From a virus: 22,782 nt of DNA. How positions within the stretch are numbered: the stretch's first letter is position 1; each line of letters begins with the position of its first letter. The notes beneath the pieces were generated by a model. It was not told the DNA's origin. It saw only the letters and a program-made list of their open reading frames with translations, and searched no databases. The position numbers were made by a program, and so were the translations under genes. Location: positions 1 through 22,782 of the IMG/VR virus record IMGVR_UViG_3300049740_000116. One strand, written 5' to 3'. Of this stretch, positions 4,050 through 22,782 are shown in pieces.

Positions 4050-6362
4050 ATGGTCACAGGAAACGAGTCTATTAATGTCAAAAAAAGAAACGGTAGAGGA
4101 ACAGAACCTCTTAACATTGAAAAGATACATGAAATGGTTGAGTATGCTTGTGAAGATATAACAGGAGTTTCATCATCACAAGTAGAAATGAAAAGTGGAT
4201 TACAATTCTATGATGGTATATCTACAGACGAAATACAACAGATTTTAGTAAAGTCAGCTGCTGACTTAATAGATTTAAATTATTCTAATTACACTTATGT
4301 GGCAAGTAGATTACTTTTATATAGTTTAAGAAAACAAGTTATGGGTAAGTTATGGGATCACCCACACTTTTATGACCATGTAAAAAAAGTTGTTGATTTA
4401 GGACTATATGATAGTGAGATATTTACAAATTATCAAAGAAAGGACTTTGATAGAATGGAGAACTGGATAATTCATAATAGAGATTATGATTTTACCTATG
4501 CAGGTCTCCGACAAGTTATTGACAAATACCTTGTACAAGATAGAAGTACAAATGTGGTATACGAAACACCACAGTTTATGTACATGATGATTGCGGCTAC
4601 ACTATTTGCTAAATATCCAAAAGAAAGGAGAATGTCATATGTTAAAAAATATTATGACGCTATATCAACTTTTAAAATTAATATTCCAACGCCTGTTATG
4701 GCTGGTGTCCGTACCCCTCTTAAGCAGTATGCTTCTTGTGTCCTTGTTGACATTGATGATACTTTACCTAGTATCTTTAGTAGCGACATGGCTGTTGGGC
4801 GTTATGTTGCCCAAAGGGCTGGGATCGGAATTAACGCAGGAAGAATCCGAGGTATCAACTCACGTATTAGAGGCGGTGAGGTTCAACATACGGGTGTTAT
4901 ACCTTTTCTTAAAAAATTTGAGGCAACTGTTAAGTGCTGTACTCAAAACGGAGTACGAGGCGGATCAGCAACAGTACACTTCCCAATTTGGCACCAAGAA
5001 ATAGGTGATATTATTGTTCTTAAAAACAACAAAGGTAGTGAAGATAATAGAGTTAGAAAATTAGACTACTCTATACAATTATCAAAACTATTTTATGAAA
5101 GATTTATTAACAATGCAGATATAACTTTATTTTCACCACATGAAGTGCCTGAATTATACGAGGCATGGGGAACAGATTCGTTTGATGAACTTTACGAAAA
5201 AGCAGAAAGAAAATTATCTGTAAGTAAAACTAAAATCAACGCACAAGAATTGTTTTTTGACATCTTAAAAGAAAGAGCAGAAACTGGTCGTATCTATATT
5301 ATGAATATTGACCATTGTAATACACACTCCTCTTTTAAAGATAAGGTTACAATGAGTAACTTATGTCAGGAGATAACTTTACCAACCACTCCAATACAAC
5401 ACATTGATGGAGAAGGTGAGATTGCTTTATGTATTTTATCTGCCATCAATGTGGGTAAAATAAACAAACGTGATGAACTACAACCATTGTGTGATTTAGC
5501 AGTAAGAGCTTTAGATGAAATAATAGATCATCAAAAGTATCCTATTGACGCTGCTGAAAAATCTACAAAGGCACGTAGAAGTTTAGGTATTGGTTACATT
5601 GGTCTTGCTCACTACCTTGCAAAGAAAGGTTACAAGTACGAGCAGAAACTTGCATGGCGACAAGTAGATAAACTAACAGAAGCATTTCAATATTATCTAT
5701 TAAAGGCAAGTAATGAACTTGCAAAAGAAAAAGGTCCTTGTTCAGCATTTAAATCTACAAAATATGCAGATGGTATATTACCCATTGATACATATAAGAA
5801 AGATGTTGACGAGTTAGTTAAAAGAGAACTAACTTATGATTGGGAATGGTTAAGAAAAGAAATTAAAGAACATGGTTTAAGACATAGTACATTGTCAGCA
5901 CAAATGCCTAGTGAATCTTCTAGTGTAGTTTCAAATGCGACAAATGGTATTGAACCACCAAGAGATTATTTGTCTGTTAAAAAGTCTAAAAAAGGCCCAT
6001 TAAAACAGATAGTACCAGAGTATAATAAATTAAAAAACTTTTATACACTACTTTGGGACATGAAAGGGAACGAAGGATATATAAATATCGTTGCAGTAAT
6101 GCAAAAGTATTTTGATCAGGCAATAAGTGGTAACTGGTCATACAATCCTGAAAATTATACTGATGGTCAAGTACCAGTATCAGTAATGGCACAAGATTTA
6201 TTGACAACATATAAATTAGGTTGGAAGACTTCATATTATCAAAACACATATGATAGTAAAAAAGACGAAGACGAACCTAGTCATCCTATCGGTTGGCAAG
6301 ATAATGTACCTGAAACAAATAAAGAGGACGATCCAGAAAATTGTGATTCGTGTGCTATATAA
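4050..6362 (+). CDS. nrdA: Class Ia ribonucleotide reductase large subunit (NrdA)
   Basis: Reduces ribonucleoside diphosphates to deoxyribonucleotides with NrdB. The 770-aa length and key residues match E. coli NrdA. There is an N-terminal ATP-cone region (about 8-95). The redox pair is Cys230 and Cys461. The radical site is N-L-C-Q-E with Asn437, Cys439 and Glu441. Tyr729 and Tyr730 serve radical transfer. The C-terminal tail has the re-reduction cysteines Cys765 and Cys768. All catalytic residues are present, so it should be active. A GGGAG ribosome binding site precedes the ATG. The stop overlaps the next ATG by one base. Part of the gene, about 4690-5000, uses codons (CTT, GTT, CGT) unlike the TTA/AGA-rich remainder. 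No intein or intron interrupts it. Confidence 0.97.
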   Translation: MVTGNESINVKKRNGRGTEPLNIEKIHEMVEYACEDITGVSSSQVEMKSGLQFYDGISTDEIQQILVKSAADLIDLNYSNYTYVASRLLLYSLRKQVMGKLWDHPHFYDHVKKVVDLGLYDSEIFTNYQRKDFDRMENWIIHNRDYDFTYAGLRQVIDKYLVQDRSTNVVYETPQFMYMMIAATLFAKYPKERRMSYVKKYYDAISTFKINIPTPVMAGVRTPLKQYASCVLVDIDDTLPSIFSSDMAVGRYVAQRAGIGINAGRIRGINSRIRGGEVQHTGVIPFLKKFEATVKCCTQNGVRGGSATVHFPIWHQEIGDIIVLKNNKGSEDNRVRKLDYSIQLSKLFYERFINNADITLFSPHEVPELYEAWGTDSFDELYEKAERKLSVSKTKINAQELFFDILKERAETGRIYIMNIDHCNTHSSFKDKVTMSNLCQEITLPTTPIQHIDGEGEIALCILSAINVGKINKRDELQPLCDLAVRALDEIIDHQKYPIDAAEKSTKARRSLGIGYIGLAHYLAKKGYKYEQKLAWRQVDKLTEAFQYYLLKASNELAKEKGPCSAFKSTKYADGILPIDTYKKDVDELVKRELTYDWEWLRKEIKEHGLRHSTLSAQMPSESSSVVSNATNGIEPPRDYLSVKKSKKGPLKQIVPEYNKLKNFYTLLWDMKGNEGYINIVAVMQKYFDQAISGNWSYNPENYTDGQVPVSVMAQDLLTTYKLGWKTSYYQNTYDSKKDEDEPSHPIGWQDNVPETNKEDDPENCDSCAI

Positions 6363-7078
6363 TGAGTGAATTAAAAGATATATTCGGTAAAAGAAAACAT
6401 CCTAATATCTATAGTGATAAGATTATTCCTACTGAAAATGATATAAGAGATATAGTTACACAAGCATATCCTTTAGTTACATCATTTAGAAAAGCATTTG
6501 CTTATGAAATACATGTTTTAGGACCTGATAAGAAACGTAGTAATGAATTATGGAAGATATGTGAAGGACATAAACAAAAAATTGATGATGATAATTATGG
6601 TGATAATGCCATACAAATAAAAAGTATGGGTATGTTACATATTAATACGGCACCGTGGATATTGATTGCAACACCAAGAGTTACAGAACCTAATGGGTTT
6701 CACAAAGATGTAACAGGCAAGAGTCATTGGGAGTTTGCTGATTATGATTTTATGAATAAAAACAATAGAGAGTCTGGTGCATTAGAAATAGGTATGTTAG
6801 CAAAAATGATAATGGGATTTGCGTTACGAGGAGGTTGGGATTCTGGTTATTGTGTTTGTTTCCCAAAGACAAGAGAGAAATGGCGAGATTATCCTTTCTT
6901 AAAGTTTTATCCTACTTTGATACAAACTATAGGTAAGGCAACAAAATACGAGTATCAATGTAAAGATAAAGAAGAACTTGAATTGAATACAGCGCCACCT
7001 TTAGAAACTATATTTAAATTTTATGATTCGATAAAAGACGACCCATTTAAGGGCACAAGCATAGAGGGAAAAGATTAA
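6362..7078 (+). CDS. Nitroreductase-like flavoprotein paralogue 1, between nrdA and nrdB
   Basis: This 238-aa protein aligns by eye with the second nitroreductase-like protein that follows nrdB. Shared features are K-R-x-H (11-13 region), V-L-G-P-D-K (52-57), T-A-P-W (96-99), E-I-G-M (142-145) followed by a hydrophobic helix ending in a Gly pair, and G-K-A-T-K-Y (191-196). These are the positions of FMN-binding and core elements in the nitroreductase fold. The usual A-P-S-x-N segment is degraded here (V-T-S-F-R-K), so it may be a non-canonical or structural subunit. Cys164 and Cys166 are close together. I chose the ATG at 6362, which overlaps the nrdA stop (TAATG), over the earlier GTG at 6350. 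The substrate is unknown. Translational coupling suggests a link to RNR or nucleotide metabolism, which is inference. Confidence 0.72.
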   Translation: MSELKDIFGKRKHPNIYSDKIIPTENDIRDIVTQAYPLVTSFRKAFAYEIHVLGPDKKRSNELWKICEGHKQKIDDDNYGDNAIQIKSMGMLHINTAPWILIATPRVTEPNGFHKDVTGKSHWEFADYDFMNKNNRESGALEIGMLAKMIMGFALRGGWDSGYCVCFPKTREKWRDYPFLKFYPTLIQTIGKATKYEYQCKDKEELELNTAPPLETIFKFYDSIKDDPFKGTSIEGKD

Positions 7079-8184
7079 TGAAAACAGTTTTTAATAAGAA
7101 CAAAAATTTAGACGCTACAAAACAACCATTGTTTTTTGGTGAAGACCTTGCTGTACAAAGATATGATACATTTAAGTATCCTATATTTGATAGATTGGCT
7201 CAACAACAACTAGGTTTCTTTTGGCGACCTGAAGAAGTATCTTTACAAAAAGATAGAAACGACTATGCTCAACTATCAGAATCACAAAAGTTTATCTTTA
7301 CATCTAATCTAAAATATCAAACTATGTTAGATAGTGTACAAGGTAGAGGTCCATGTTTAGCATTTCTACCATTTGTAACTAATCCTGAATTAGAAGGTGC
7401 CATAGTTGCATGGGACTTTATGGAAACAATTCATAGTAGAAGTTACACATACATAATTAAAAACTTATATTCAGACCCTAGTGATATATTTGATACTATT
7501 ATTGAAGATAAGAAGATACAAGAAAGATCAAAAGCAGTTACAGAAGCATACGACAAACTAATTGCATTAGGTTACAAATGGCATAATGATCCTAAATCAG
7601 TTGACATTTACGAACTAAAGAAAGCATTATGGCTTGCGTTAGTAACTGTAAACGTATTAGAGGGTTTAAGATTCTATGTATCATTTGCTTGTTCGTTTGC
7701 ATTTGGCGAATTAAAACTTATGGAAGGTAGTGCTAAGATATTATCTCTTATTGCTAGAGATGAAAGTCAACACCTTGCAATGAGTCAACAGATTATCAAA
7801 GCATATCTTACAAAAGAGAATGATAAGGTAATGAATAAAGTTATTAAAGATACACAAAAAGAATGCTATAAAATATATGATGACGCAGTACAACAAGAGA
7901 AAGATTGGGCAACTTATCTATTTCAAAAAGGTTCTATGATAGGACTATCAGAAAAATTACTACATCAATATGTTGAATATATAGCAAATAGAAGAATGAG
8001 AGTAATAGGATTAGAGCAAAAATATGAACAATCAAGTGCAAACAATCCATTACCTTGGACACAACATTGGTTTAATAGTCACTCACTACAAAACGCACCA
8101 CAAGAAACTGAAATAGAAAGTTATGTTATTGGTGGGCTTAAACAAGATGTTAAGAAAGATCAATTTAAAACATTTAAACTATAA
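7078..8184 (+). CDS. nrdB: Class Ia ribonucleotide reductase small subunit (NrdB)
   Basis: Holds the diiron-tyrosyl radical that starts catalysis in NrdA. The 368-aa sequence has all expected ligands: Asp85, Glu116 and His119 (E-T-I-H), Glu195, Glu229 and His232 (R-D-E-S-Q-H). The radical tyrosine is Tyr123 in H-S-R-S-Y. These align with E. coli NrdB D84, E115, H118, E204, E238, H241 and Y122. It is therefore a canonical class Ia subunit, not a metal-free or tyrosine-less variant. The ATG overlaps the stop of nitroreductase-like paralogue 1, and the stop overlaps the start of paralogue 2, so all four proteins are coupled. Confidence 0.97.
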   Translation: MKTVFNKNKNLDATKQPLFFGEDLAVQRYDTFKYPIFDRLAQQQLGFFWRPEEVSLQKDRNDYAQLSESQKFIFTSNLKYQTMLDSVQGRGPCLAFLPFVTNPELEGAIVAWDFMETIHSRSYTYIIKNLYSDPSDIFDTIIEDKKIQERSKAVTEAYDKLIALGYKWHNDPKSVDIYELKKALWLALVTVNVLEGLRFYVSFACSFAFGELKLMEGSAKILSLIARDESQHLAMSQQIIKAYLTKENDKVMNKVIKDTQKECYKIYDDAVQQEKDWATYLFQKGSMIGLSEKLLHQYVEYIANRRMRVIGLEQKYEQSSANNPLPWTQHWFNSHSLQNAPQETEIESYVIGGLKQDVKKDQFKTFKL

Positions 8185-8879
8185 TGAATCAACCACCAAT
8201 TTTACATTTGTTGAATAAAAGACAACATGTTATGGCCTACGATACAGAGGACATACCTGAAAAACAATTGATTGAAGACTTATTATGGAAAGCATGGAAA
8301 GTTACACCATCTAAAAACAATTTTATGCCGTACCATTGTAATGTATTAGGTCCTGATAAGGTAAAAGAAAAACACTCTATATGGAAGAAAAGTCAACAGA
8401 ATAAAAAAGAAATAAATGAGCATAATATTGAAGATCACAAAGAAGAAGGATACAACAAATACTTTGATCATTTAAGTACAGCACCTTACCTATTAGTGTT
8501 TACACAAAGATTATGTGAGGCAAATGATTTTTACAGAAAGAGCATACAGGAAGGTGACTACTACGAACAAATGCACGAACATGAGATAGACTCAATGATG
8601 AGAACTACAACCGTAGAAATAGGAATGTGGATGGCTAATTTATCAGCCTTTGCATTAGAGAAAGGTCTAAATACATCTACAATAGGATGTTTTCCGTATC
8701 AACCCTTTTTTGCAAAAAATCCTAAAAATACATGGGCAGATTTACCTTGGGTAAAATATCCTGTTCTATTGTTAGGTAGTATAGGTAAAGCAAAACAATA
8801 TCGTAGAGAAAGTATGACCGAACTTGAAAAGAAAGACGATAAGAAACCAGAACCAGAAGAAATAATAAAGTGGATATAA
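8184..8879 (+). CDS. Nitroreductase-like flavoprotein paralogue 2, after nrdB
   Basis: This 231-aa protein has a recognisable nitroreductase-family layout. A basic segment K-R-Q-H near residues 12-15 ends in A-Y-D, as in the phosphate-binding R-R-S-x-R motif. Residues 41-50 read T-P-S-K-N-N-F-M-P-Y, equivalent to A-P-S-x-N-x-Q-P-W, which contacts FMN. The long helix E-I-G-M-W-M-A-N-L (145-153) leads to A-L-E-K-G-L and a C-F-P turn, and L-L-L-G-S-I-G (195-201) follows. It is more canonical than paralogue 1. The family uses NAD(P)H and FMN to reduce diverse substrates. The position directly coupled to nrdB suggests service to RNR (for example flavin-mediated radical or iron maintenance) or to modified nucleotide synthesis. 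Neither is shown by the sequence. Confidence 0.78.
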   Translation: MNQPPILHLLNKRQHVMAYDTEDIPEKQLIEDLLWKAWKVTPSKNNFMPYHCNVLGPDKVKEKHSIWKKSQQNKKEINEHNIEDHKEEGYNKYFDHLSTAPYLLVFTQRLCEANDFYRKSIQEGDYYEQMHEHEIDSMMRTTTVEIGMWMANLSAFALEKGLNTSTIGCFPYQPFFAKNPKNTWADLPWVKYPVLLLGSIGKAKQYRRESMTELEKKDDKKPEPEEIIKWI

Positions 8880-9065
8880 ATGGCTGAAGACGAGAACACA
8901 AACAAAGTACAAATAAGTTGCAACAATTGTGATGTATCTTATTGGGTAAAATGGTCAGACGAAGACGCTGAACCTACTACTTGTCCTTTCTGTGGTGCTG
9001 ATACTTCTATTGAAGAAGAGGATGCGATATTTGAAAATGAAGAAGAACAAGACAATTGGAATTGA
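8880..9065 (+). CDS. Small acidic zinc-ribbon protein
   Basis: The 61-aa product has two CxxC pairs (Cys14/Cys17 and Cys35/Cys38), the second as C-P-F-C-G. This is the pattern of a zinc ribbon. The C-terminal 20 residues are almost all Asp/Glu. The ATG directly follows the upstream stop and the gene overlaps the RuvC-like gene by 29 nt. Small zinc ribbons of this kind are common in T4-like phages and often bind nucleic acid or protein partners. The target here is unknown. Confidence 0.75.
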   Translation: MAEDENTNKVQISCNNCDVSYWVKWSDEDAEPTTCPFCGADTSIEEEDAIFENEEEQDNWN

Positions 9066-16979: not shown

Positions 16980-17260
16980 TGAAACTATTGAAGAAACATA
17001 AAGAGATATTAAACGAACTGATAAAAGGTAAAGGTTATTTCAAAACACCTACCGTACCTAAAAACCACCAAGAGAATATTTTAGATGATTTAGTCAATCT
17101 TTATTTAAAAGATTTACTTGTGTTTAATAGAGAATATGACGTGCCATCATTTGGTCCTAGTAGTGAACACAAGGTAAGATATAAATGGTATACAGTTACA
17201 ATGCCTAAAACTAAAACAATCAAAGACTTAAAAAAGGTGGTTAAAGATGGCAAAATTTAA
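16979..17260 (+). CDS. Hypothetical basic protein
   Basis: This 93-aa protein starts with a helix L-K-K-H-K-E-I-L-N-E-L and has a pattern reminiscent of small winged-helix proteins: helices, then V-R-Y-K-W-Y-T-V strands and a basic C-terminal helix. Evidence for DNA binding is weak. It overlaps the glucosaminidase gene by 14 nt. Not recognised. Confidence 0.62.
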   Translation: MKLLKKHKEILNELIKGKGYFKTPTVPKNHQENILDDLVNLYLKDLLVFNREYDVPSFGPSSEHKVRYKWYTVTMPKTKTIKDLKKVVKDGKI

Positions 17261-17927
17261 TTGGCATAGACTAGCAAATCTGGCTTGGTTTTATACAAAG
17301 GTATTCTTTGCAGTATTGACTTTATGCGTTGTTTCATACTTGTACGGTACACATAAACCTAATGAGTCTGCTATTGCAAAAGTCAATGAAGAATTAGATA
17401 TATTTTATATGAATGAGATTAAGGCAATGGATTTACAAGAACCTGAATTTACATATAACAATGATATACAATTTGTACGTGCTATGCACAAATGTATAAA
17501 CTTCATAAATTTTACATTACCTAAAGATAAAAGAGTACCTTATGAGATGATTATAGGTCAGGCAGCGTTAGAGTCTGCTTGGGGTCAATCAAGGTTTGCA
17601 GTAGAAGGTAATAATTTATTTGGGATTAGAACATGGAGTAAAGACTCACCACATCTATTACCACAAGGTGTTACAAAGTGGCCTGGTTGGGGTGTAAAAG
17701 TATTTGCTAGTAAATGTGATAGTGTAAACTATTATATTGATCTATTAAACAATCATAATGCTTACAAAGAGTTTAGAGTATTAAGACAAAAAATGCTTGA
17801 TAAGAATCAAATGCTAGACTCATTGTTATTGATTAAAAAACTTGATAAGTTTTCTACAACAAAAGATTATGACGCTAGAGTTGCTAGAATGATATTTAAA
17901 ATCAGAAAACTAGAGGAGAAAAAATGA
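17247..17927 (+). CDS. Membrane-anchored glucosaminidase (Bax/FlgJ-like, GH73), putative endolysin
   Basis: The 226-aa protein has an uncleaved-looking N-terminal hydrophobic helix (about 11-33) and then a glucosaminidase domain. The key motif is G-Q-A-A-L-E-S-A-W-G with Glu109 as the probable catalytic acid, followed by G-N-N-L-F-G-I (121-127), the hallmark of Bax/FlgJ-type enzymes that cut the peptidoglycan glycan strand. The membrane helix suggests signal-anchor-release (SAR) endolysin behaviour, in which the enzyme waits tethered in the periplasm. It is followed with an ATGA overlap by a small membrane protein that could be a holin. Lysis is the likely role; remodelling of host wall during infection is an alternative. 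Confidence 0.8.
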   Translation: MAKFNWHRLANLAWFYTKVFFAVLTLCVVSYLYGTHKPNESAIAKVNEELDIFYMNEIKAMDLQEPEFTYNNDIQFVRAMHKCINFINFTLPKDKRVPYEMIIGQAALESAWGQSRFAVEGNNLFGIRTWSKDSPHLLPQGVTKWPGWGVKVFASKCDSVNYYIDLLNNHNAYKEFRVLRQKMLDKNQMLDSLLLIKKLDKFSTTKDYDARVARMIFKIRKLEEKK

Positions 17928-19295: not shown

Positions 19296-19478
19296 ATGAC
19301 TACTAAATTTGATAGACCTATTAGATTCTCAACCAAAGTTAAGAGATTAAACAACCTTGCTAGTGCATGTGCTAAATCAAATAACAATGACTTTAAAGCA
19401 ATGTGGTACCATAAACTAATTGACTTGGCAAAAGAATATGATATGTTAAACTATGTAATGAGAAAGGTAATACACTAA
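19296..19478 (+). CDS. Small basic helical protein from a leaderless mRNA
   Basis: I place the start of this 60-aa protein at ATG 19296, not at the upstream GTG (19257), because the longer form would include the promoter and the mRNA is predicted to begin at 19296. The protein is basic and helical without membrane segments or motifs. The stop overlaps the next ATG (TAATG). Function unknown. Confidence 0.68.
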   Translation: MTTKFDRPIRFSTKVKRLNNLASACAKSNNNDFKAMWYHKLIDLAKEYDMLNYVMRKVIH

Positions 19479-20056
19479 TGAATATATTTTATGTTGACAA
19501 AGACCCGAAGACAGCGGCTAAGATGATGTGTGATAAACATATTATTAAAATGATACTAGAGTCTGCTCAGATGTTATGTACTGCTAAAAGAGTACTTGAC
19601 GGCACAGAATATATTGATACTACAAAGAATGGTCGTAAGATTAAAAGATGGCGACTAGATAACCCTAACGAAGAAGCAATAGTTTACAAAGCAGGTTGGT
19701 TAGGTCACCCTAGTACACAATGGGTAATCAAGTCAGCATATAATTACAACTGGTTATTTAATCACTTCATAGCACTAAACGAAGAATACAAATTAAGATG
19801 GCAAAAAGATACAGACCATGTATCAATAACTAAACTTGCTGATCTACTAAAACACCCACCTAAAAATGCACCATTGAACGTAGTCGCTACAGACGCTACA
19901 CCAGCAATGCCTGATCATTGTAAGATACCAGGCGATGTTGTAGGTTCGTATCGTAAGTATTACATATTAGAAAAAGTAAGATTTGCTAAATGGGAAAAAC
20001 ATGGTGCAGTTATGCCTGATTGGTTCAAACAAGGGTTACAAGAAAATGCCAGGTAA
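19478..20056 (+). CDS. Phage-conserved hypothetical protein (C-D-K-H family)
   Basis: The 192-aa protein begins M-N-I-F-Y-V-D-K-D-P and has C-D-K-H (18-21) then K-M-I-L-E-S-A-Q-M-L. I recall the same opening in T4-like cyanophage and other phage proteins of unknown function. H-P-S-T-Q-W-V (77-83) and Y-N-W-L follow. The conserved Cys, Asp, His and Glu residues near the N-terminus suggest an enzymatic or metal-binding site, but I cannot name the activity. The end overlaps a 47-aa gene by 11 nt. Confidence 0.72.
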   Translation: MNIFYVDKDPKTAAKMMCDKHIIKMILESAQMLCTAKRVLDGTEYIDTTKNGRKIKRWRLDNPNEEAIVYKAGWLGHPSTQWVIKSAYNYNWLFNHFIALNEEYKLRWQKDTDHVSITKLADLLKHPPKNAPLNVVATDATPAMPDHCKIPGDVVGSYRKYYILEKVRFAKWEKHGAVMPDWFKQGLQENAR

Positions 20057-21827: not shown

Positions 21828-22001
21828 ATGTTAGAAGTGAAAACTCATCATAAAGAACTGAAAAGAGCAGTGAATGAAGTTGAAGAAAAAAGAAGAAATG
21901 ACAGATCATCTAAATTATGGTTTGATGTAAGAACCTTGAAGAAAATTAAACTAAATGCAAAGGATAAACTAAATGCAACTAAGCAAAAACTTTTCGCTTA
22001 A
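21828..22001 (+). CDS. 57-aa DUF465-like helical protein
   Basis: The frame from ATG 21828 follows the upstream stop by one base, with GGGGG as ribosome binding site. It encodes H-H-K-E-L-K-R-A-V-N-E-V-E and ends L-K-K-I-K-L-N-A-K-D-K-L, a pattern like DUF465/YdcH small helical hairpins. The last 29 nt overlap the M15 peptidase gene. Small relatives are common next to this region's neighbours in T4-like marine phages. Function unknown. Confidence 0.65.
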   Translation: MLEVKTHHKELKRAVNEVEEKRRNDRSSKLWFDVRTLKKIKLNAKDKLNATKQKLFA

Positions 22002-22443
22002 AGAACTAACTGCTTCACAAACAGCAGATAGACATGGTATTAGCAATAATCCAAGCGAAGATCATATGGATAACTTAAAAAAACTATGTGATAATGTTCT
22101 ACAAAAAGTTAGAGATCATTATGGCAAAGTAGTATCTGTATCAAGTGGTTATCGTAGTCCTGAATTGTGTGTAAAGATTGGGTCAAGTATGAAGTCCCAG
22201 CACGCAAAAGGCCAGGCTGCGGACTTTGAAATCTTTGGAATTGCTAACGCTGACTTAGCAAAGTATATTATAGATACTTTAGATTTTGACCAGCTGATTT
22301 TAGAGTTTCATAAACCAGAAGAACCTAATAGCGGATGGATTCATTGTTCGTATAAGAACAAAGAAGAAAACAGAAAACAAGTATTAAGAGCATACAGAAA
22401 TGATGATGGTAAGACGGTATACGAACCGTATGACCCTAGTTGA
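21973..22443 (+). CDS. M15-family peptidase (VanY/endolysin-like)
   Basis: The 156-aa protein has the M15 zinc peptidase pattern: S-S-G-Y-R-S (57-62), then His77 with Asp84 in Q-H-A-K-G-Q-A-A-D-F, and His124 in G-W-I-H-C-S-Y. These enzymes cut peptidoglycan stem peptides or crosslinks. No signal peptide is present, so it would need a holin or virion delivery to reach the wall. It complements the membrane-anchored glucosaminidase at 17247, giving the phage two different cell-wall cleavage activities. The frame continues past the TGA for 25 further codons. Confidence 0.88.
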   Translation: MQLSKNFSLKELTASQTADRHGISNNPSEDHMDNLKKLCDNVLQKVRDHYGKVVSVSSGYRSPELCVKIGSSMKSQHAKGQAADFEIFGIANADLAKYIIDTLDFDQLILEFHKPEEPNSGWIHCSYKNKEENRKQVLRAYRNDDGKTVYEPYDPS

Positions 22444-22521
22444 GCTACTGAACGTCTTAATAATGACAGAATAGAAGAGCAGAATAAGATCATTGATCTT
22501 TATATGCAAAAAGGAATTTGA
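22444..22521 (+). other. In-frame coding-like extension after the peptidase stop
   Basis: After TGA 22441-22443 the same frame stays open for 25 codons, reading A-T-E-R-L-N-N-D-R-I-E-E-Q-N and ending in TGA 22519-22521. The composition looks like an amphipathic helix. It could be a read-through extension, a decayed C-terminus or a remnant of another small gene with a non-ATG start. TGA serves as a normal stop in several tight overlaps elsewhere, so general recoding is unlikely. Confidence 0.3.
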
Positions 22522-22522
22522 T

Positions 22523-22782
22523 ATGAAGACAGTTATATTATTGATAGATTTTAAAGGTCATCCTGCTCTTGGTGATGAGTATCTTAACAATTTAAGATAT
22601 AAAGAGGTACAAAAAATACTATCTAATCCTCTAATTGATAAAACTAAAATAGTATTCTGTTCTACATCTGATAGTCGTCCAGACCCAAAGATGGATGAGA
22701 TTCAGTTTATGGCAAACCAAACAGGTTTTCACTTTTTAATATACGAAGAGCATATATCTTTTGCTATGTTGAGAGTACAGTT
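22523..22782 (+). CDS. Hypothetical protein, cut by the window edge
   Basis: An ATG with AAGGA 7-8 nt upstream opens a frame that runs 86 codons to the end of the window without a stop. The N-terminus V-I-L-L-I-D-F-K-G is a buried beta strand ending in Asp, and a second strand K-I-V-F-C-S-T-S-D-S follows around residue 44. This is the alternation of a Rossmann-like alpha/beta fold. No family is recognised from this fragment. Confidence 0.7.
   Translation, partial: MKTVILLIDFKGHPALGDEYLNNLRYKEVQKILSNPLIDKTKIVFCSTSDSRPDPKMDEIQFMANQTGFHFLIYEEHISFAMLRVQ

Follow-up and report, generated by a model that had tools for sequence, protein, structure and literature searches.

Nitroreductase-fold genes as probable cargo in the nrd operon of a marine T4-like phage, and a recurrent C-terminal tag

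Introduction

Why do two nitroreductase-like genes lie interleaved with nrdA and nrdB, the subunit genes of a class Ia ribonucleotide reductase (RNR), in a marine phage? The question is raised by IMG/VR virus record IMGVR_UViG_3300049740_000116, a virus fragment of 22,782 bases that was analysed as a whole and is called the window; all positions are numbered on this whole stretch. On its + strand, nrdA (4050 to 6362; large subunit, NCBIfam NF006578, 1053 bits; PHROG 84, E 0) is followed by the nitroreductase-fold paralogue NR1 (6362 to 7078; 238 residues, ATG at 6362), by nrdB (7078 to 8184; small subunit, 462.9 bits to NCBIfam NF006576) and by NR2, a 231-residue protein of the flavin mononucleotide (FMN)-type nitroreductase family (8184 to 8879). 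This order had been claimed by an earlier reading of the DNA letters without database searches (the sequence-only reading) and is present at 4050 to 8879. The same reading held it plausible that NR1 and NR2 form a heterodimer with one degenerate subunit, possibly serving the iron/tyrosyl centre of NrdB or a nucleotide made by RNR. Comparison with related phages points elsewhere: NR1 and NR2 are probably cargo acquired separately by the nrd operon, NR2 belonging to a radical S-adenosylmethionine (radical-SAM) pathway and NR1 carrying a C-terminal tag. A gene pair apparently dedicated to RNR would thus be revealed as cargo from elsewhere, and an orphan FMN nitroreductase would be linked to radical-SAM cassettes that are so far unexplained and belong to the most abundant myophages of the sea.

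Results and Discussion

Two Insertion Slots in the nrd Operon

Gene order was read in the 80 IMG/VR loci whose nrdB genes were closest, chosen regardless of nitroreductase (NR) genes; L- and G-numbers denote the loci and longer relatives compared with the window. All surveyed contigs are partial, and NR copies elsewhere in those genomes are possible. The slot between nrdA and nrdB was empty in 49 loci, held the orf239 family, which is unrelated to NR1, in 13, NR1 in 12 and SpeD in 1, and lay outside the view in 5. The slot 3' of nrdB was empty in 59 loci and held NR2, with or without a hydrolase, in 20. NR1 and NR2 occurred together in 8 of the 80 loci. The order picked out by the sequence-only reading, nrdA-NR1-nrdB-NR2, is not peculiar to the window and recurs in related marine phage contigs. 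The SpeD-like cargo (L173:3600-4001) is an S-adenosylmethionine decarboxylase (PF02675, E 5.5e-14). Three loci (L016, L017, L021) carry two NR2 copies in tandem 3' of nrdB (each copy about 60% identical to the class of the other).

Neither gene is a constant companion of this NrdB, as an RNR accessory would be, for both slots were empty in 37 of the 80 loci. Nor are the two always together, as an obligate heterodimer would be, within the limits of partial contigs: NR2 stood beside nrdB without NR1 in 12 of the 80 loci, and NR1 without NR2 in L182, L184 and L187, as well as in L006, which came from an earlier search and not from the survey. A fixed NR1-NR2 heterodimer finds no support in this pattern; in phages that carry both genes, the two proteins might still pair. 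The NrdB proteins of L142 and L145 are 97% and 96% identical to that of the window, with no adjoining NR gene, and L145 provides a clean empty site, nrdA TAATG nrdB against nrdA TAATG NR1 TAATG nrdB in the window. On long contigs (18 to 68 kb) without NR genes at nrd, none turned up at any other place. In NR2-less relatives, the gene directly 3' of nrdB is that of a 61-residue zinc-ribbon-like protein, which in the window follows NR2. HTVC008M, a cultured pelagiphage relative, has two other genes in the nrdA/nrdB gap. The window NrdB is itself a usual class Ia sequence (NF006576 is an equivalog model). Together with the radical-SAM and isochorismatase-like genes that usually neighbour NR2 (see below), the ordinary NrdB and its close NR-less counterparts argue against the role in RNR that had been proposed.

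Insertion at this place has precedent, since T4 mobE is inserted between nrdA and nrdB with a UAAUGA junction (PMC2988022), and unknown genes have been reported in among the nrdA and nrdB genes of phages (PMC3653736). NR1 lies in the same gap as mobE, has the same UAAUGA stop/start overlap, and its gap is empty in relatives. The difference lies in the cargo, mobE being a homing endonuclease and NR1 a nitroreductase-fold protein; neither NR1 nor NR2 had a homing endonuclease match in Pfam or PHROGs, and no such gene was found beside NR1. The nrd arrangement is an NR-type variant of the already known nrdA/nrdB cargo insertion.

The three junctions of nrdA-NR1-nrdB-NR2 are one-base TAATG overlaps (6362, 7078 and 8184), as the sequence-only reading had seen, while NR2 and the next gene only abut (TAA/ATG at 8880). 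Six more such overlaps occur in the window (2535, 10419, 11076, 11330, 16979 and 19478). The genome is compact and rich in TAATG overlaps, so that they are no special evidence of coupling; with the six others and the same junction at mobE, the overlaps stand and their interpretation as the mark of a coupled special unit is not supported.

We propose that NR1 entered the nrdA/nrdB gap and that NR2, often with an isochorismatase-like partner, separately entered the gap 3' of nrdB, the recipients being a group of marine T4-like phages. Both gaps would act as insertion slots in which stop/start overlaps keep the operon readable, so that cargo would be co-expressed with RNR and need not act on it.

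NR2 and the Radical-SAM Cassette

Relatives of NR2 were found in 65 IMG/VR loci. Many lie away from nrd, in a cassette of the order tail tube-RS460-NR2-LIDF-RS526-UvsY, in which the tail tube and UvsY, like the major head protein, were assigned by PHROGs. RS460 and RS526 are radical-SAM proteins (PF04055; RS460 with E 1e-11 to 1e-13), and the radical-SAM proteins of the cassette show an invariant CNLDCxMC (RS460) and four further conserved cysteines. LIDF appears isochorismatase-like: it scored below the cut-off against PF00857 (E 0.003 to 0.03) and its motif G-G-T-N-x-x-G-C-V contains the expected Cys; an N-terminal Asp is also present. In other cassettes these genes are joined by a third nitroreductase, small SPASM-like and radical-SAM proteins and a PP-loop protein. 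LIDF often comes next after NR2 at nrd as well, which suggests that both moved together; the window has lost LIDF behind NR2.

Two longer relatives show the two locations in one genome each. G001 (165.7 kb) has NR1 and NR2-LIDF at nrd, RS526 alone in the tail-tube slot and RS460 in a third place, in another cassette. G002 (170.8 kb) has its sole NR gene in the tail-tube cassette, with nrdB 107 kb away. Among cultured phages, the sole NR relative was Mosig_00082 (30-31% identity), which lies beside radical-SAM-type genes and not beside nrd; in the same collection RS460 gave three weak matches only and LIDF none. An RS460 alignment run against 84,980 bacterial and archaeal genomes gave 3 weak radical-SAM matches, a narrow pattern that does not imply absence.

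In an unrooted tree of 54 proteins, nrd-linked NR2 fell within a clade of 14 shared with tail-tube-linked NR2 (support 99/97). This clade lay inside one of 26 made up of nrd- and tail-tube-linked NR2 only (96/97), itself within a larger set of radical-SAM-linked copies. NR1 grouped apart, in a clade with 100/100 support and a branch of 2.8. With NR1 on its own long branch and NR2 among radical-SAM-linked copies, the two are not a co-evolved pair derived from local duplication; a local tandem duplication as their origin was ruled out by the tree.

The nesting, the cassette context and the arrangement in G001 and G002 lead us to assign NR2 to the radical-SAM system and to propose that it moved to nrd. 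Its assignment draws on homology, predicted fold, FMN motif, cassette context and tree position. Most likely NR2 takes part, as an FMN oxidoreductase, in a pathway of radical-SAM modification, the other genes of which would lie elsewhere in the genome. It would still serve that pathway, drawing its expression from the nrd operon and acting on a substrate of the radical-SAM enzymes or on their product, while LIDF would be a hydrolase.

Several points weigh against this account. NR1 and NR2 were together in 8 of the 12 NR1-bearing survey loci, a suggestive hint at some link between them, although these loci belong to related phages and do not count as independent cases. The window, at 22.8 kb, is a fragment, and the radical-SAM genes are documented in its relatives, not in this phage. 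The nrd clade of 10 is itself supported at only 84/76, and the direction of the NR2 move is inferred from nesting in an unrooted tree. No NR2 relative was found in the 84,980 bacterial and archaeal genomes when the NR alignment was searched as one narrow pattern.

Radical-SAM cassettes have been described in a variable region of pelagimyophages (PMC7029224), and a T4-like marine genome contains 12 radical-SAM genes (PMC5332604). NR2 relatives adjoin radical-SAM enzymes in cassettes of this kind; our search of the two papers found no mention of nitroreductases or of a move to nrd. Our literature search returned no relevant paper joining nitroreductase, radical SAM and phage RNR.

Further observations concern the cassettes themselves. 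RS460 and RS526 have an N-terminal GGPGDK...W motif in common. Cassettes of radical-SAM, nitroreductase, isochorismatase-like and PP-loop genes occur in L022-L066, L117-L134, L085, L086 and L088, either between tail tube and uvsY or as part of larger clusters. Radical-SAM clusters away from nrd also hold diverged nitroreductase-like paralogues, paired in tandem or nearly so (L126:5207-6657, L132:5290-6681, L133 and L134). In the window, the start of a LIDF-like protein (22493 to 22782, cut by the window end) marks a second place of a cassette gene in this phage. An in-frame TAG flagged in RS460 of G001 proved to be its terminal stop.

Fold, FMN Motif and Constraint of NR1 and NR2

A search with NR2 recovered NR1 of the same record (E 1.7e-25, 29% identity), and by this comparison their paralogy is beyond chance. 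The blocks that the sequence-only reading had aligned (K-R-x-H, V/N-V-L-G-P-D-K, T-A-P, E-I-G-M and G-K-A) were all recovered in our alignments, as KRKH/KRQH, HVLGPDK/NVLGPDK, TAP, EIGM and GKA. Profile searches separated the two proteins. NR2 matched PF00881 (E 3.9e-8, 34.1 bits, above the gathering cut-off of 23.5), and NR1 fell short of the PF00881 score, with no Pfam match at E 1 and no NCBIfam model match; the nitroreductase assignment was thus borne out by profile for NR2 alone. Structure prediction brought them together again. The predicted fold of each is that of the FMN nitroreductases, the NR1 AlphaFold2 model (mean confidence score, pLDDT, 85.2) and the NR2 model (pLDDT 94.0) each having 3gbh as best Foldseek match (E 8.8e-9 and 1.9e-9, respectively), with VIA Z 15.9 and 3.0 Å over 187 residues for NR2. 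A fold match, on which the sequence-only reading had staked both proteins, was therefore obtained for the two models. PDB sequence searches with NR1 or NR2 alone gave no clear match, and a search with the NR family profile led to nitroreductases.

The predicted likeness to the PF00881 family (for example 3gbh, NfsB and iodotyrosine deiodinase) spans the full length of both proteins, and NR2 alone also scores against PF00881 and has the FMN motif P-S-x-x-N. Both differ from the solved members in being only 12-19% identical to them and in their linkage to phage radical-SAM cassettes and nrd genes, and NR1 also in lacking the motif. A further comparison is the AlbAB cyclodipeptide oxidase, in which a nitroreductase-fold subunit is part of a hetero-oligomer and whose entry 8uc3 was among the NR2 fold matches; unlike AlbAB, NR1 and NR2 gave no evidence of an obligate complex.

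The sequence-only reading was also right that NR2 retains an FMN-type motif and NR1 does not. NR2 has the full signature, P-S-x-x-N with an N-terminal Arg (R13, P42, S43 and N46), residues that we take to correspond to NfsB R10, P38, S39 and N42. Where NR2 keeps T-P-S-K-N-N, NR1 has V-T-S-F-R-K, and of the signature the Ser and the N-terminal Arg alone are left. V-T-S-F-R-K was found in all NR1 of the window's clade and in two NR1 about 60% identical; the more distant NR1 of L182 has V-T-S-K-Q-K. Because other distant paralogues retain S-K-N/Q-N, the motif loss is specific to NR1. Invariant positions in the family alignment are R13, S43, E145, G147, W184 and G201 (NR2 numbering).

Pairwise ratios of nonsynonymous to synonymous substitution (dN/dS, NG86) were 0.35-0.59 for NR1 (15 pairs), 0.04-0.29 for NR2 and 0.08-0.17 for NrdB. 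Judged by these ratios, NR1 is under purifying selection and is the least constrained of the three. NR1 would then be the older paralogue, evolving faster and with its FMN motif degraded; its function might lie in weak FMN binding, in a partner role or in something else.

A C-Terminal Tag Shared by Unrelated Proteins

In the window's clade, the last 12 residues of NR1 are DPFKGTSIEGKD (7040 to 7075, + strand) and lie in a low-confidence, flexible end of the model. The same end residues occur on the unrelated orf239 proteins in the nrdA/nrdB gap of other phages. The full tag pattern is [RK][DN]TxxDPFKGTx[IM]EG[KR]D-stop (window 7040-7075; L221-L372), in which the residues before the 12-residue end are alike too, [KR][DN]T often following K-[FY]-x-E-x-N. 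A degenerate DNA pattern from which the stop codon was left out was scanned against IMG/VR and matched at least 119 stretches. With the NR1 loci added, the tag is present in at least 121 marine-phage loci, always read in frame and always at the very end of the protein.

To group the carriers into families, 24 C-terminal residues were cut off and a similarity threshold of E 1e-3 was applied. Among the matches listed, the carriers fell into 19 families without detectable mutual similarity, namely NR1 and 18 others. These include heme oxygenases (PF01126, E 1.5e-22), small terminases (PHROG 445, E 1.6e-44), 2-oxoglutarate-Fe(II) oxygenases, aspartyl hydroxylases (PF05118), PD-(D/E)XK exonucleases and orf239, besides one protein whose sequence resembles a peroxiredoxin and numerous small ones of 60-110 residues.

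The tag is encoded by at least 54 distinct DNA sequences, whose third codon positions vary freely. When the last seven residues were left unconstrained, 129 of the 130 matches listed were still C-terminal tags, with IEGRD and MEGKD as the only variants; when DPFK was left unconstrained, all 162 matches listed had DPFK. The loci of these two scans overlap in many cases. With residues constant, third positions free and variants rare, the tag is kept as a peptide.

Among the matches listed, no locus had two tags. At two tags per genome and uniform placing, 7.5 to 9.8 second tags would be expected in the 1.28 Mb of tag-bearing sequence, and the probability of seeing none is 5e-5 to 5e-4, a guide only, as the contigs are partly redundant. 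The tag thus apparently occurs once per genome. Untagged homologues lie beside tagged carriers (a small terminase in L239, an exonuclease in L250), and untagged NR1 exist in L010, L017 and L182. The tag was absent from G001, G002, Mosig, HTVC008M and S-TIM5; a 23-residue tag query matched no record in the cultured-phage collection, the tag peptide had no match in the PDB, and our literature search found no paper with the tag string. As far as we could determine, the tag seems to be undescribed.

We regard it as unlikely that NR1 is only a decaying nitroreductase remnant without enzyme activity, kept to carry the tag or to space nrdA from nrdB. Its lost FMN motif, the highest dN/dS of the operon and the presence of the tag on carriers as small as 60 residues would fit such a remnant. 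Against it, dN/dS was well below 1 in all 15 pairs and the predicted fold is intact, and the existence of untagged NR1 implies that something besides the tag is kept.

It is more doubtful still that the shared peptide was left behind by a mobile 3'-end DNA cassette, such as a recombination arm or a ribosome-binding region for the next gene, and is not a working peptide. The tag does shift between unrelated genes, often stands just before an overlapping start codon with a GAGGG-like sequence inside, and its single copy per locus would suit one mobile element. Such an element would not account for constant residues across so many DNA sequences, for rare variants that are conservative and always end in D-stop, or for the in-frame position at the exact C-terminus of all matches listed.

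Farthest from the evidence, and very improbable, is the heterodimer acting on RNR: the shared operon with its overlaps, the paralogy, an FMN motif in one subunit only, the co-occurrence of both genes in some nrdB loci and a fold family that forms dimers with shared active sites speak for it, and it is partly refuted by the presence/absence pattern, in which each gene stands beside nrdB without the other and neither accompanies many closest nrdB (NrdB up to 97% identical), besides the radical-SAM linkage of NR2 relatives far from nrd and the distance between NR1 and NR2 in the tree.

For the tag we tentatively suggest, with slightly more doubt than belief, that marine myophages place it on one protein per genome and that it docks or delivers that protein or is itself a working peptide. 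We favour a docking peptide, which would bind a partner from the phage or its host. If each phage does tag exactly one protein, the tag would point to one step of delivery, docking or take-over. Encapsulin cargo-loading peptides are likewise short, C-terminal, carried by unrelated proteins and placed behind a flexible linker; the tag differs in sequence and in occurring once per genome. We know of no counterpart to a linear C-terminal tag that is conserved as protein across about 20 unrelated proteins and yet present just once in each locus. Two other candidates were rejected. For the tag as a product of the radical-SAM cassette no link was found, as tag loci lack a cassette radical-SAM gene and G001 and G002 have the cassette without the tag; nor does the tag match the (I/L)-x-E pattern of the T4 prohead protease site.

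Neighbouring Genes of the Window

A T4-type primase lies upstream of the operon, and downstream are the 61-residue zinc-ribbon-like protein (8880 to 9065, + strand; four CxxC-type cysteines, weak zinc-ribbon matches) and a RuvC-like resolvase. These neighbours identify the source as a T4-like phage. Farther along, the window encodes a pyrimidine-dimer glycosylase-like protein (19478 to 20056; PF03013, E 8.7e-8) and two lysis-type enzymes, a glucosaminidase-domain protein (17247 to 17927; PF01832, E 2.8e-15) and an M15 peptidase (21973 to 22443; PF08291, E 1.5e-18).

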